From Xanthobacteraceae bacterium (GTDB lineage: Bacteria > Pseudomonadota > Alphaproteobacteria > Rhizobiales > Xanthobacteraceae): a stretch of 64,000 nucleotides of DNA. The stretch covers positions 1 to 64,000 of the forward strand of contig JARBUD010000014.1 of assembly GCA_029239875.1 (NCBI GenBank). The letters are read 5' to 3'. The notes below the pieces were generated by a model. That model saw only the letters and a program-made list of their open reading frames with translations. It ran no database searches and was not told the DNA's origin. A program made the translations under genes and the position numbers. This document shows, piece by piece, positions 50,700 through 62,275 of this stretch (position 1 is the first letter of the stretch; the number at the start of each line of letters is the position of its first letter).

Positions 50700-51632
50700 T
50701 TATTTCTTGTTGAGCGCGGTCACCGCAAGGGCCGTCGCGGCGGCCCGGTTCTCGACGCCGATCTTCGAATAGATCTGCTCGAGGTGCTTATTCACCGTGC
50801 GGGGCGACAGGCCGAGAATCTCGCCAATGTCGCGATTCGCCTTGCCGCGGGCGAGCCACATCAGCACTTCGGCCTCGCGGACGGTGAGGTTGAGCTTGGC
50901 CCTGAGCACCTGCTCGGGCGGCAGGCGGTCGTCCTCGACGATTCGCAGCAACAGCTCCTCCGGCCCGATCTGGCCGACATAGGAGAGTCTCAGCCGGCGC
51001 GCGGAGCCCTCGACCGGCAGGTCGATCGCGTCCGGCTCGGCCGCGGCGGCCTCGCCCTTGCGGCCCTCCAGCCAGCGACGCACCGGCTCGGGCAGCATCA
51101 GGCTGTCGCCGGGCGGCGAGACGGTGATCGAGGTGAGCAGCGCGGTCGCCTGCGGCGTCGACCACAGCACCCGCCCCTCGCGCGTCGCCGACAAGAGATA
51201 GCGCCCGGCCGCATCCAGCGCCGCGCGGGCGCTGTGGGTCTGGCGGGCATTGGCGAGATGCACGCGGATGCGCGCGATCAGCTCGTCCGGCGAGATCGGC
51301 TTGGTGACGTAGTCGACGCCGCCCGCCTCCAGCCCCTTCACGATCTGCTCGGTCTCCGACAGACCGGTCATGAAGATCACCGGCACATGCGCGACCGACT
51401 TGTTGCGCTTCAGGCGCCGGCAGGTCTCGAAGCCGTCCATGCCGGGCATCACCGCGTCCATGAGGATGACGTCGGGGGTGATGCGCTCCACCAGCGCCAG
51501 CGCGTTGGCGCCCTCCACCGCCACCAGCACGGTGGCGCCGGCGGCCTCCAGCGCGTCGGTGAGCAGGCTGAGGGTCTCGGGGGAATCGTCCACCACCAGG
51601 ACGATGTCGCGGCGTTCCACGCTATGCATCAT
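50700..51632 (-). CDS. LuxR/NarL-type response regulator
   Basis: The 310-residue protein has an N-terminal receiver (DIVLVVDDSPETL, phosphorylation aspartate in PDVILMDAVMPGMDG and lysine in YVTKPISPDEL). A PAS-like middle region follows, then a LuxR-type HTH: LTVREAEVLMWLARGKANRDIGEILGLSPRTVNKHLEQIYSKIGV. The gene overlaps the 3' end of the hybrid kinase by 11 bp, marking it as that kinase's partner. It should bind inverted repeats such as the palindrome before the amide transporter genes, though that is inference. Confidence 0.93.
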   Translation of the reverse strand: MMHSVERRDIVLVVDDSPETLSLLTDALEAAGATVLVAVEGANALALVERITPDVILMDAVMPGMDGFETCRRLKRNKSVAHVPVIFMTGLSETEQIVKGLEAGGVDYVTKPISPDELIARIRVHLANARQTHSARAALDAAGRYLLSATREGRVLWSTPQATALLTSITVSPPGDSLMLPEPVRRWLEGRKGEAAAAEPDAIDLPVEGSARRLRLSYVGQIGPEELLLRIVEDDRLPPEQVLRAKLNLTVREAEVLMWLARGKANRDIGEILGLSPRTVNKHLEQIYSKIGVENRAAATALAVTALNKK

Positions 51633-54600
51633 CGCTGCGCAACGCCTCCAGGACGGCCATGTATTGCTTGAGGTCGAAGGTTTCCATCAGGTCGCGCATA
51701 TGGGAGACGAAGGCCTTGTTCTCCGGCGAGACGCTCTCGATCTCGGTGAGCTTGGCCTGGATGCCGCGCACATAGCCGATCTCGCCGAGCTTCACGAGGT
51801 CGTCGATATGCACGCCGGAGGGCGCGCGCAGGCTGGCGACCGGCACCGCCTCCTCCGCCGCCTTGGCGGCGAGCTCGGCCTCGCCCACCCATTCGATGTC
51901 GAGCAGCGCCGCCATCTTCTCCAGGAGCGTGCGCAGATGCACCGGCTTGACCAGATGGTCGTCGTGCTGGGCGAGGCCGTCGCCATGGATCTCGCCGGCA
52001 TTGGCCGAGATCATCAGGATGCGCAGCCGCGCGAAGCCCTCGTCACGCAGCTGCCGCACGACTTCCCAGCCGTTGAGCCCGGGCATGGAGATGTCGAGCA
52101 GCAGCACGTCCGGCTCCCATTGCCTGACCATGTCGAGCGCCTGCACGCCGTCGGTGGCGGCGAGCACGGTGAAGCCGAGCGGCACAAGGAGTTCGTGCAT
52201 GAGGTCGCGATGGGCGGCATCGTCGTCGGCCACCAGCACGGTGCGGCGCGGGCCGGTATAGCCGGCGATGTGCCGGTGCTGGATCGGCCCGATGCGGGAG
52301 GGATTGGTCACCTCGGAGAGCATCAGCTTCACCTTGAAGCTGCTGCCCTCTCCCGGCGTCGAGGTGAGCGAGATCTCCCCGCCCATGATCTCGGTGAGCA
52401 GCTTGGTGATGGTGAGCCCCAGGCCGATGCCGGCGGTGGAATAGGTACCGGCCCGCTCCCCGCGCTCGAACGGCTCGAAGATGCGCGTGTGGTCGGCGGC
52501 GGGGATGCCGATGCCGCTGTCCTCGACCTCGAACTCGGCCACCTGGTTGCGATAGGAGACGCGCAGCGCCACCCGGCCGCGATCGGTGAACTTGATGGCG
52601 TTCGACAGCAGGTTGATCAGGATCTGCCGCAGCCGCTTCTCGTCGGTATAGACCACCGCCGGCAGCCGGTCGGGGCGGACATAGACGAAGTCGATGCCCT
52701 TGGCGGTCGCCTGCAGGCGGAACATGTCGACGAGCTGGTCGAGGAAATCGGCGATGCGCACCTCGTCGCGGGTGAGGTGCAGCCGCCCCGCCTCGATCTT
52801 CGAGATGTCGAGCAGCCCGTCGATCAGGCCGGAGAGGTGCTCCGCCGAGCGGCGCACCACGCGGATGGCGTCGCGCCGGTGCGGCGGGATCGAGGTGTCG
52901 CGCTCCAGCAGCTGGGCATAGCCGAGGATGGCGTTGAGCGGCGTGCGCAATTCGTGGCTGATGCCGACCACATAGCGGCTCTTGGCGAGGTTGGCGGCCT
53001 CCGCGGCCTCCTTCGCCTTCTGCAGCTTGGCGTCGGTGCGCTTGTGCGCCTCGATCTCGCGCATCAGCAGCGCGGTCTGGCGGTTGCTCTCCTCCTGCGC
53101 GACGCGCCGGCTCTCCTGCGCCAGCACGAACAGCCAGGCGGCGACGCCGGCGATGATCAGCAGGATGAAGTAGAGCGTGAACAGCACGCTGCCGACCGCC
53201 TCGGCCTCGCCGACGGGGGCGAAGGTGGCCTGGAAATAGATCACCCCCAATATCGCGCCGATCACCAGAGCGAGCAGCGACAGCACGCCGATATAGTGGC
53301 CGATGCGCGAATTGAGCTGCGCCACCATCCACACCGGCAGCGTCGCCCGCATCGCCGCCAGTATCTGATCGGGGAAGCGCGCATCCTCCTTGCAGCGGTC
53401 ATGGCAGCGCGCGTCGAGCGAGCAGCACAGCGAGCAGATCGGCCCGGCATAGACCGGGCAATGCGCCATGTCCTCAGGCTCGAACTTGTGCTCGCAGATG
53501 CAGCACTTGAGGGTAAGTCGCGTGTCCCAGTTCTTGTTGGTGCGCCGGGCGATGTAGTAGCGCCCTCGGGTGGCGAAGGCGATCGCCGCCGCCGAGACGA
53601 AGGAGACGGCGAGCGCGAGGAACGGCGCGAATACCTTCAGCGTCGGCCCGAAGAAGCCGGCGAAGGCGATCACGCCGACGAGGGTGCCGACGAACACCGC
53701 GCCGACGCCCACGGGGTTGATGTCGTAGAGATGCGCCCGCTTGAACTCGATGCCGGGCGGACTCCAGCCCATCGGCTTGTTGACCACGAGGTCGGCCACC
53801 AGCGCCGCCACCCAGGCCACCGCGACGATGGCGTAGAGGCCGAGGATCTGCTCCAGCACCTTGTAGATGCCGAGCGCCATCAGCATCAGCGCGATGGTGA
53901 CATTGAACACCAGCCACACCACCCGGCCGGGATGGCTGTGGGTCAGGCGCGAGAAGAAGTTCGACCAGGCGATCGAGCCCGCATAGGAGTTCGTCACGTT
54001 GATCTTGAGCTGGGCGAGGATGACGAAGACGCCGGTGAAGGCGAGCGCCACCTCGGGCGAGAACACCGTCTTGAACGCGACCAGATACATCTGCGTCGGC
54101 TCGGCCGCGTGGATGAAGGGCACGCCTTGCGTGAGCGCGAAATAGGCGAGGAACGAGCCGGCCAGCATCTTGATGCCGCCGGGGATGATCCACCCCGGGC
54201 CGGCGGTCAGCAGCGCCACCCACCACAGCACGTTGCGCGCCGTCTCGCTGCGGCCGGGCGCGCGGCGCGGCAGGAAGCGCAGGAAGTCCACCTGCTCGCC
54301 GATCTGCGCCACCAGCGCGAAGACCACGGTGGTGGCGGCACCGAACATCACGAGGTCGAAGGAGCCGTCCGGCGCGCCGAAGCGGCCGGTATAGGAGGTC
54401 CAGCCGGCGAGCGGGTTCTCGTCCATCGCGAAGATGAAGACGAAGGGAATGAGGTTCAGCACCAGCCAGAAGGGCTGGGTCCAGAGCTGGAAGCGGCTGA
54501 TGAAGGTGATGCCGTGCGTCACCAGCGGAATGACCACCAGCGCGCTGATGAAATAGCCGACCATCAGCGGCACGCCGAAGCACATCTCCAGCGCCAGCGC

Positions 54601-61884: not shown

Positions 61885-61921
61885 CCGCTCCTACTCCGAG
61901 GAAACGGCCGAGGAACACCTC

Positions 61922-62275
61922 ATGCCCGTCTACGAATATCAGTGCGAAAGCTGCGGCGACTTCACTGCCATGCGGCCGATGAGCGAGTACCAGGACCCGC
62001 AGCCCTGCCCGGATTGCGGCGCCTCCGCCCCGCGGGTGATGCTCACCGCGCCGCATTTCTCCGGCATGTCGCGCGAGAGCCTTGCCGCCCACGCCACCAA
62101 TGAGCGCGCCGCCAACGCGCCGATGACCACCGGCGAGTTTGCCGCGAAGAAGCACGGCTCCGGCTGCTCCTGCTGCTCCGGTATGAAGAGCCGCACCAAG
62201 AAATCCAAGACCGCGACGGCGGCGAGCGGAGCGAAGAGCTTCCCCTCCGCCCGGCCGTGGATGATCAGCCACTGA
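61922..62275 (+). CDS. fmdB: FmdB-family zinc-ribbon regulator
   Basis: The ATG at 61922 after GAGGAAC gives 117 residues. The zinc ribbon is YEYQCESCGDF..QPCPDCGAS with C8, C11, C29 and C32. The tail has a further CSCCSG cluster and a basic region (KSRTKKSKTATA). FmdB proteins accompany formamidase in several methylotrophs and act as likely regulators. It is separated from fmdA by the hairpin repeats, so the gene may be regulated separately. Confidence 0.93.
   Translation: MPVYEYQCESCGDFTAMRPMSEYQDPQPCPDCGASAPRVMLTAPHFSGMSRESLAAHATNERAANAPMTTGEFAAKKHGSGCSCCSGMKSRTKKSKTATAASGAKSFPSARPWMISH

Follow-up and report, generated by a model that had tools for sequence, protein, structure and literature searches.

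The closest described systems are the SLC5-STAC sensor kinases CbrA, CrbS and RpuS, in which a LeuT-fold transporter lies N-terminal to a histidine kinase and the partner regulator governs nutrient use (PMC13022988, PMC7096432, PMC5715377, PMC9100948). A transporter and formamidase cluster has also been described: the Bradyrhizobium blr0968-0973 genes, encoded beside FmdA and AmiE, were inferred to carry amides, and the same paper cautions against assuming urea as the cargo of UrtABCDE importers (PMC3098086). In Dechloromonas aromatica, a histidine kinase of 1131 aa and a receiver protein of 308 aa are encoded beside urtA (PMC2907700), and in Ectopseudomonas guguanensis, histidine kinase and LuxR genes adjoin urtABCDE (PMC13296017). 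These genes resemble the system studied here in size and/or gene order, and the passages on them in the two genome papers make no mention of a permease domain, ligand or operator. We analyzed a locus in which a transporter-like domain, a hybrid kinase and a urea/amide operon occur together; the window is the whole stretch of 64,000 nucleotides that was analyzed.

Domain architecture and gene organization

The initial annotation had described a 1129-residue protein joining an NCS1-like permease, a cysteine-rich module, a histidine kinase and a receiver, and this layout was confirmed by the open reading frame (ORF) list, Pfam and a structure model, the module having eight cysteines. Similarly, the overlapping LuxR-type regulator and the divergent urtABCDE-fmdA-fmdB operon were recovered by the ORF list, Pfam and NCBIfam. 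The earlier coordinates of kinase, regulator and operon were correct (Table 1), with 55494 and 61922 as the probable true starts of urtA and fmdB. The kinase starts at an ATG (55011); a GTG 90 bases upstream would give an alternative protein of 1159 aa. HisKA with an H-box (SHELRTP), HATPase_c and a receiver, all well over their Pfam cut-offs, identify the protein as a hybrid histidine kinase, and its gene is overlapped by the regulator gene by 11 bases. All five subunits of the UrtABCDE importer, as well as the formamidase and the FmdB/RPWMISH protein, scored over the NCBIfam cut-offs. By eye, UrtA carries a twin-arginine-like signal (TRRKLLM). Judged from fmdA in the operon, the evidence points to formamide or other amides as the substrate of the importer.

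Table 1 Features of the sensor kinase locus and the divergent operon in the window
Feature	Position	Strand	Evidence
Response regulator, 310 aa: receiver, middle region, LuxR/GerE HTH	50700..51632	-	PF00072, PF00196
Hybrid sensor kinase, 1129 aa	51622-55011	-	ORF list, Pfam
Kinase receiver domain	51916..52239	-	PF00072, 3.5e-19
HATPase_c domain	52318..52647	-	PF02518, 6.2e-27
HisKA domain	52786..52983	-	PF00512, 7.4e-18
Two extra hydrophobic helices, ~residues 569-630, leading into kinase	53122..53307	-	DSSP of model: H569-595, H602-640
Eight-cysteine module, residues 503-541, C-x2-C-x11-C-x7-C-x2-CC-x5-C-x3-C	53389..53505	-	Alignment
NCS1-like permease domain, ~residues 38-490	53542..54900	-	Structure model, Foldseek CodB/Mhp1, hhalign to CodB, conservation
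Predicted operator, ATACGTC-AATC-GACGTAT	55385..55402	.	Divergent promoter palindrome
UrtA-type binding protein	55494..56777	+	TIGR03407, 540.7 bits, cut-off 492.75, scored on longer 55362 start
UrtB permease	56870..57796	+	TIGR03409, 396.5 bits
UrtC permease	57807..58979	+	TIGR03408, 444.1 bits
UrtD ATPase	58993..59763	+	TIGR03411, 384.4 bits
UrtE ATPase	59774..60463	+	TIGR03410, 333.3 bits
Formamidase FmdA	60514..61755	+	NF045496, 770.3 bits, equivalog cut-off 500; PF03069
FmdB-type zinc ribbon protein, RPWMISH end	61922..62275	+	NF053663, TIGR02605, scored on longer 61829 start

A looser version of the eight-cysteine pattern was present in all 140 kinases of our set, and the module is probably metal-binding. 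A RING/B-box identity was suggested by a single PDB profile match that was not significant (E 6.1).

The permease domain and its conserved residues

The permease part of the kinase had no match in Pfam, including the NCS1 family PF02133, or in NCBIfam, and none among PDB entries in a sequence search. The designation NCS1-like therefore comes from the predicted structure and profile comparison. The structure was predicted with 28 sequences (pLDDT 83.5, pTM 0.84), and in a Foldseek search of the PDB with this model CodB and Mhp1 occupied ranks 1-5 (best E 1.2e-9 and 1.4e-9, respectively), with TM-scores of 0.50-0.53 by model length and 0.66-0.81 by target length. Comparison with a profile of CodB and two PF02133 proteins by hhalign gave 99.7% over 409 columns in global mode and 99.2% in local mode. 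Among the kinase-free relatives scanned, one (L236) matched PF02133 (1.1e-9, 38.1 bits, cut-off 23.5), while five others, like the window kinase, did not; thus, the link to PF02133 is indirect. SLC5 structures ranked behind NCS1 structures, and Pfam gave no SLC5 or STAC match, although its library may hold no STAC model.

In the aligned rows, E133, Q236, E239, D242, R245, K336, N338 and Y343 were invariant (K336 in all 148 rows, made up of 140 kinases and 8 permeases), and E57 was invariant in the kinases only. D213/R216, N280 and Y285 of CodB (PMC9379551) correspond to D242/R245, N338 and Y343 of the window kinase, whereas W108 is replaced by F129. The CodB residues T278/T279 are replaced by K336/I337 in the hhalign alignment (18% identity), which departs from an NCS1 sodium symporter. 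T126, F129, Q236 and N338 are predicted to be pocket positions; 30 of the 140 kinases have leucine at position 129. In TM1 and TM8, the kinases differed from every one of the 8 permeases, with E57 for F/Q, L/C/M56 for D, F53 for Y and A344 for S. When kinases in amide and urea contexts were compared, the largest residue differences were at 230 (TM6), 129 (TM3), 567, 269 and 401, so that only part of them map to the CodB-like site. As specificity positions these may be regarded as suggestive only, given about five independent contrasts, of which two to three agree and none is opposite for position 129. The permease and cysteine module were also found fused to PAS-GGDEF-EAL, which fits a sensory input module.

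Gene neighbourhood of kinase homologs

The initial annotation had proposed counting urt and fmd genes next to kinase homologs, and the outcome was strongly positive, with exceptions. Among 80 named loci of the closest relatives, 76 had urtA nearby, and most kept the common order kinase-regulator / urtABCDE; three of the four misses lie on contigs shorter than 6 kb, and one (L175) is genuine. These loci are not independent, as many come from Ancylobacter and Bradyrhizobium and two pairs (L069/L099 and L097/L105) are same-species repeats. In a class-wide sample, 21 of the 26 genomes with the kinase had urt or fmd genes no farther away than about 10 kb, the exceptions being G093, G222, G320, G111 and G386. 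In a second class, urt, fmd or ure genes were found at 10 of 18 fusion genes; the other 8, and the Tistrella-type genomes of the first class, had no such neighbor in the stretch examined. Across the phylum, the permease profile matched 58 of 398 sampled genomes, 52 of them with E <1e-200. A search for viral carriage gave 34 pattern matches and no relatives.

The partners of the kinase belong to unrelated families, namely urease, FmdA, AmiF-type CN hydrolase and AmiE. At four loci (L225, L228, L230 and L254), the kinase adjoins urease with no urt operon in the stretch examined. Of five genomes with two hybrid kinases, four (G577, G641, G662 and G781) have one copy at urt-fmd and the other at urease; in the fifth (G1036), one copy is at urt-fmd and the other has no such neighbors. 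Parsimony on the best tree gave six changes between amide and urea contexts. Together with the split two-copy genomes, these changes indicate that the association survives changes of partner. The kinase-free relatives likewise adjoin urease, formamidase or aliphatic amidase, except for 2 of the 8 in the set (L239 and L241). Seven rows (L100, L116, L148, L172, L224, L226 and L229) lie inside the kinase clade and have kinase-domain matches; some of them have split frames or truncated contigs. L166 was classed as an amide locus for its amiE, though urease and canonical urtA are also present. The kinase thus accompanies urea/amide genes in many different bacteria, although a neighborhood of uptake genes alone cannot name the molecule sensed.

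A predicted operator and its covariation with the regulator

The palindrome in the divergent promoter stands 92 bp ahead of urtA and 374 bp ahead of the kinase gene, measured to their starts, and is the only site with ≤1 mismatch in the 5.07-Mb genome. Its half-sites were identical in 9 of 9 sequences of the genus, one of which (L081) differs at a single spacer base. A perfect site was present just upstream of the kinase in all 28 genus genomes carrying it; of two kinase-less genomes, G022 has no site and that of G006 lies in a region lacking these genes. A second exact site occurs in three genus genomes (G012, G014 and G018), and in G012 it lies away from these genes.

The palindrome recurs across Proteobacteria. 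It was found at 53 of 142 loci, whereas 100 permuted cores averaged 0.04 and never exceeded 2, and 42 of 147 kinase-regulator pairs, including both of G577, had none at ≤2 mismatches. In a scan that allowed one mismatch and misses the TACGCT form of Methylobacterium-type loci, it preceded fmdA at each of the six loci with >2 kb between urtE and fmdA; it also precedes fmdA in three Pseudomonas/Stutzerimonas loci. One recognition-helix residue of the regulator (N281 in the window, SPRTV-N-KHLEQ) covaries with the half-site (counts of 46, 3, 1 and 14 across the 64 rows taken from the thinned tree set; Fisher 2e-10). This value is inflated by relatedness, because there are only three well-supported independent contrasts, averaging 2.7 same and 0 opposite (sign test p 0.25). 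The proposal that the kinase drives the amidase operon thus gains independent backing from DNA, as palindrome and covariation suggest a link from kinase through LuxR regulator to operon. Control of the operon by kinase and regulator is strongly supported at the level of sequence.

Discussion

Because the kinase adjoins urea/amide genes in many bacteria and its regulator apparently acts via a conserved site, we regard the protein as a probable urea/amide sensor of permease origin, whose regulator would activate the operon via the palindrome. Sequence and prediction provide the architecture, fold, gene association, operator and regulator-operator covariation; we infer that the effect is activation, how phosphate is transferred and what the cysteine module does. 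The presumed ligand, either urea or a short-chain amide (at the window locus most likely formamide), would bind at the centre of the NCS1-like domain, and the movement that follows would reach the kinase by way of the cysteine module and the two additional helices. The partner LuxR-type regulator would then receive the phosphate, bind the palindrome and activate urtABCDE-fmdAB, and perhaps also the kinase gene. Amides, urea or nucleobase breakdown products had initially been proposed as signals. Urea and short amides fit the gene contexts and are the presumed ligands; nucleobase sensing lacks support and was set aside, as the annotated neighborhoods that were read contain no nucleobase catabolism. 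At one kinase without urt neighbors (L253), a nucleoside transporter gene follows the regulator gene.

The NCS1-like domain might instead be a working importer of urea or amide, a transceptor whose kinase part responds to transport flux, in the way suggested for histidine and CbrA; we regard this as possible, if somewhat doubtful. The simplest view of the kinase-free relatives is that they act as permeases within urease and amidase operons, and they share the predicted pocket and TM8 residues with the kinases. The CodB sodium ligands T278/T279 (PMC9379551) align with K336/I337, and CbrA likewise has a lysine in its sodium site (PMC13022988), which makes a proton-coupled carrier thinkable. However, the departures of the kinases from all 8 permeases in TM1 and TM8 might be expected after loss of transport, and the kinase has no need to transport where a urt operon supplies an ABC importer. 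Extending this idea, we tentatively suggest an unrecognized NCS1-superfamily branch specific for urea and short amides, comprising both proton-coupled permeases and sensors. The window protein would then be a genuine transceptor, and pocket residues of TM3 and TM6, such as F129, would separate urea from amide. The permeases of this branch would be encoded in operons for urease, formamidase and amidase, under present names such as cytosine permease, allantoin permease or hypothetical protein, and the same carrier, with a cysteine-rich tail of its own, would have become the input of hybrid kinases and even of a GGDEF-EAL protein.

That the permease part is a mere membrane anchor, with another signal (nitrogen status, metal or redox via the cysteine module, or loaded UrtA) being read, seems unlikely. 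Retention of the cysteine module in every kinase and the several loci without urt, fmd or ure neighbors would agree with it, but an anchor has no need of invariant residues at the predicted central site, and the kinase-free permease relatives accompany the same enzymes. UrtA in particular is unlikely as a general signal, since the four urease-linked kinases noted above have no urt operon in the stretch examined. Inheritance of one old gene cluster, uninformative on function, could account for the gene order kept at most named loci. This explanation is very improbable and already largely refuted by the six context changes, the split two-copy genomes, the unrelated partner families and the operator before displaced fmdA genes. 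The urea/amide sensor with regulator and palindrome therefore remains our preferred reading.

To our knowledge, dedicated bacterial urea or amide sensors are few. With the present system, the use of urea and formamide by bacteria from soil, plants and marine habitats could be tied to a defined sensor, regulator and predicted operator. The initial annotation had called it poorly described, in line with our literature search, which found no description, although the two genome papers seem to list members; it probably represents a urea/amide sensor that is widespread yet has so far escaped description. Judging from the kinase-free relatives, urea or amides may be the cargo of some proteins whose genes are annotated as cytosine or allantoin permease. 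The system also represents a second carrier type that has become a kinase input, so that the rules of CbrA can be compared across families.

Compared with the Bradyrhizobium cluster, which is of the same kind, our analysis adds sensor, regulator and operator; the term two-component is absent from the text of PMC3098086. The permease domain shares its fold with CodB and Mhp1 (PMC9379551), and differs from them in being fused to a kinase and in having no PF02133 match. Like CbrA, CrbS and RpuS (PMC13022988, PMC7096432, PMC5715377, PMC9100948), the window kinase has a LeuT-fold transporter before the kinase and a partner regulator for nutrient use, and like CrbS it is a hybrid kinase. Its transporter part is NCS1-like whereas theirs is SLC5, an eight-cysteine module and two helices take the position of STAC, the regulator is of the LuxR type, and the probable target is urea/amide uptake and hydrolysis. 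The kinase would function like the SLC5-STAC kinases of the CbrA kind yet does not belong to them; it extends the CbrA-like transporter-kinase fusions to an NCS1-like input.

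Organization of the kinase-urt-fmd locus

The initial annotation had singled out a permease-fused hybrid kinase, a LuxR-type regulator and a divergent importer-formamidase operon. This locus was borne out as real and conserved, and its regulator, a predicted operator and the carrier family of the permease part now add to the claim. Each importer subunit of the window scored above its curated NCBIfam cut-off, as did the formamidase and the FmdB-type protein.

Features of the kinase-urt-fmd locus in the window
Feature	Position	Strand	Basis
LuxR-type response regulator	50700-51632	-	Downstream of kinase, 11-base overlap with it
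Hybrid kinase, 1129 residues	51622-55011	-	ORF
Operator palindrome ATACGTC-AATC-GACGTAT (predicted)	55385-55402		Kinase-urtA gap; alignment of nine genus members
urtABCDE, fmdA, fmdB	55494-62275	+	Divergent from kinase

Just before urtA (about 55465-55490), a leader of CCACGTCAAACCCGTGG followed by a likely ribosome site was nearly invariant in nine genus sequences and could fold into a small hairpin. Inspection by eye placed an AcoR-kind sigma-54 activator (-), an aldehyde dehydrogenase (+) and a small DUF779-like protein (+) at 45633-50042, seemingly without connection to the kinase and urt genes, and a gamma-glutamyltransferase-like gene at 62605-63999, running past the window end. The genome also encodes a second, canonical-scoring UrtA (561.5 bits) on another contig (G000:C27:21225-22322); no kinase of the family accompanied it, since a genome search returned one such kinase only.

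In the kinase, the permease domain is followed by an eight-cysteine module, found C-terminal to the permease in 140/140 kinases, two more helices, the kinase and the receiver. The permease part of the window protein matched no Pfam or NCBIfam family and no PDB sequence. An AlphaFold2 model of it, built from a 28-relative alignment, had a pLDDT of 83.5 and a pTM of 0.84, and the NCS1 carriers CodB and Mhp1 (PMC9379551) took ranks 1-5 in a Foldseek search with this model. Aligned by profile with E. coli CodB and two PF02133 proteins, the permease part spanned 409 columns in global mode (99.7% probability) and 408 in local mode (99.2%). In the profile alignment, whose residue register is a prediction at 18% identity, N338, Y343 and D242/R245 are equivalent to CodB N280, Y285 and D213/R216; F129 aligns with the stacking residue W108, T126 with Q105, and K336/I337 with the sodium ligands T278/T279 (CodB roles from PMC9379551). 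K336 was present in 148/148 aligned rows.

Association with urea and amide genes

Counting how often kinase homologues neighbour urt/fmd genes had been proposed as a check, and the counts bear the association out. In a species-level scan (one genome per species, 84,980 species), relatives were encoded in at least 590 of 595 stretches examined, and urtA lay within the fetched flanks of 76 of the best 80 of these relatives, a set biased to close relatives. An evenly drawn class sample of 385 genomes gave 27 matches, one of them a plain NCS1 protein (G198). Among the remaining 26 kinase genomes, 21 had urt or fmd neighbours at up to about 10 kb (neighbour calls for G229, G326 and G403 being taken from match coordinates), and five had none at that range: the Tistrella-type genomes G093, G222 and G320, together with G111 and the partial G386. 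The 274 genomes of a second class held 18 fusion genes in 15 genomes, besides a distant NCS1 protein (G912) and a kinase-free permease; urt, fmd or ure genes were in the fetched stretch for 10 fusion genes and absent from it for eight, one of which is on a 5.7-kb contig.

Two kinds of locus recurred: an amide type, with fmdA and a UrtA about 68-99% identical to that of the window, and a urea type, with canonical UrtA and/or urease. Parsimony on the best tree gave 6 context changes. Five genomes seen had two hybrid kinases each: G577, G641, G662 and G781 paired a urt-fmd copy with a urease copy, and G1036 paired a urt-fmd copy with one that had no such neighbour. At a Klebsiella plasmid locus, an AmiF-like CN hydrolase stands in fmdA's place, and Klebsiella accounted for 342 of the 529 plasmid records matching the permease domain. 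The plasmid locus (L100; AP022554.1 112525-138147) carries kinase, regulator, urt genes and AmiF-like formamidase near clpK/hsp20. Tistrella and some Azospirillum-type kinases (L069, L092, L093, L175, L075) had no urt/fmd/ure neighbours; in Tistrella a TACGCA-type palindrome with 2 mismatches nonetheless lay upstream of the kinase gene.

A predicted operator and its proposed regulator

The kinase-urtA gap was largely variable among nine genus members, the urtA leader excepted, and the operator half-sites were identical in all nine, with one spacer base differing in L081. At ≤1 mismatch, TACGTC-N4-GACGTA occurred once in the 5.07-Mb genome, against six occurrences of the reversed-pattern control. 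Among 30 genus genomes scanned, a perfect site stood just upstream of the kinase in 28/28 kinase-bearing genomes. As for the two genomes lacking the kinase, one was siteless, and in the other (G006) a 19-kb stretch fetched around its single site contained no queried gene. G012, G014 and G018 each had one extra exact site, that of G012 not being near kinase/urt/fmd genes. Across 142 kinase loci, a site was located 30-600 bp upstream of the kinase in 53 (100 permuted cores: mean 0.04, maximum 2), and spacers of 2, 3, 5, 6 or 8 in place of N4 gave no sites. A second version, TACGCA-N4-TGCGTA, occupied the same position in Bradyrhizobium and others. With both versions, 84 of 147 kinase-regulator pairs had a site with ≤1 mismatch and 21 more one with two, and 42 had no site of either version at ≤2 mismatches; 80 sites lay between divergent kinase and urtA, at a median of 104 bp to the urtA match and 154 bp to the kinase match.

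Among the 92 fmdA loci, six had >2 kb separating fmdA from urtE, and in each of them a separate operator preceded fmdA by 83-151 bp. The same arrangement was found at shorter urtE-fmdA gaps in three loci from Pseudomonas or Stutzerimonas; in four Methylobacterium-type loci, where the distance was 1.2 kb, no operator preceded fmdA at ≤1 mismatch. Furthermore, the half-site covaried with the recognition-helix residue after T-V (N281 in the window regulator). Counting sites with ≤1 mismatch in the 142/147 pairs with a readable helix, N regulators had TACGTC in 56 cases and TACGCA in 3, D, T or Q regulators had TACGCA in 22 and TACGTC in 1, and K and H regulators (5 pairs) had no site. In a thinned tree set of 64 rows, the residue/half-site table was 46, 3, 1, 14 (Fisher 2e-10); a tree-aware test gave only three well-supported independent contrasts, a mean of 2.7 in the same direction and none opposite, which is not significant alone. 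Because displaced fmdA genes have their own operators and the helix residue covaries with the half-site, we would say from these comparisons that the partner regulator acts at the operator.

Kinase-free relatives and other fusions

Kinase-free permeases resembling the input domain (about 535-562 residues; 37-74% identity among themselves or to the window domain) came from Actinobacteria, Gammaproteobacteria and one alphaproteobacterium, under the database names cytosine permease, allantoin permease or hypothetical. PF02133 matched one (L236, 1.1e-9) and none of five others scanned. Eight formed one clade (SH-aLRT 99; tree of 115 rows). Their neighbours were formamidase and FmdB in Tsukamurella and Moraxella, aliphatic amidase and acetate-CoA ligase in Arthrobacter, urease genes in Acinetobacter and in a 5.4-Mb Klebsiella record catalogued as a plasmid, and formamidase, amidase and the kinase itself in Methylovirgula and G1049; two further relatives had no urease, formamidase or amidase neighbour in the neighbourhoods read. 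Comparison of 140 kinase rows with 8 kinase-free rows gave fixed differences (kinase/permease) near the TM1 break and in TM8: F53/Y53, L,C,M56/D56, E57/F,Q57 and A344/S344. The cysteine module was absent in seven of the eight, with a similar tail lacking most cysteines aligning in the Tsukamurella and Arthrobacter proteins. Since the Methylovirgula protein and, by eye, the G1049 protein keep the cysteines, the alignment hints that the module was originally a carrier tail. Elsewhere (L216:8949-13984), a plain NCS1 permease (PF02133) precedes a double CN-hydrolase protein, a UrtA-like binding protein and an AmiR-like protein (named by eye), possibly another amide operon with an NCS1 carrier.

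The permease-cysteine unit also occurred on a PAS-GGDEF-EAL protein (L244), a PAS-PAS hybrid kinase (L245) and a receiver-less kinase (L246), with no urt/fmd/ure neighbour in the fetched stretches; this recurrence fits a portable input module. The L244 protein (6852-10520 (-), genome G929), encoded beside a LysR-type regulator, is possibly a urea/amide-controlled cyclic-di-GMP enzyme. A second kinase, receiver-less and about 880 aa long, shares the permease and cysteine module (L057, L058, L059, L218, L103). It adjoins a second formamidase, joined in places by an FmdB-like protein, AmiS/UreI and extra response regulators, and it accompanied the main kinase in 8/30 genus genomes. In L217:8857-10713 (G702), a 618-aa hybrid kinase without permease retains the two helices and, as judged by eye, a remnant rich in cysteines; adjoining it on the opposite strand is a regulator that shares 47% identity with that of the window.

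Proposed mechanism and relation to known systems

In the mechanism we propose, a ligand would bind the carrier site of the NCS1-like domain, the cysteine module and two helices would relay the signal to the kinase, and the kinase would phosphorylate the LuxR-type regulator, which would bind the palindrome and raise importer and hydrolase expression. The initial annotation had the permease part sensing amides, urea or nucleobase breakdown products and driving the operon: control by the kinase-regulator pair is very likely, and sensing of urea/amide is likely. The H2N-C=O group common to urea and small amides would account for the use of a single receptor family with both kinds of operon. The positions at which amide- and urea-type kinases differ most include 230 (TM6) and 129 (TM3), which lie in or beside the CodB site, and 567, 269 and 401, off it; independent switches are too few to prove specificity positions.

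The fmd genes of Methylophilus form an amide/urea uptake system. A urt-fmd cluster was linked to amides by inference in 2010 (PMC3098086), and another, of Pseudomonas veronii, in 2026 (PMC13209695), in a paper that makes no mention of 'histidine kinase'. Two genome papers list an unnamed kinase and regulator beside urt genes (PMC2907700, PMC13296017), pairs that look like family members by size and gene order. The system had been called poorly described, and we found no description of the sensor in the literature searched, which takes in few subscription papers. CbrA, CrbS and RpuS are SLC5-STAC kinases (PMC13022988, PMC7096432, PMC5715377, PMC9100948). The window kinase has no SLC5 or STAC match, and we therefore rejected its membership among them; despite this difference, its working would be similar to theirs.
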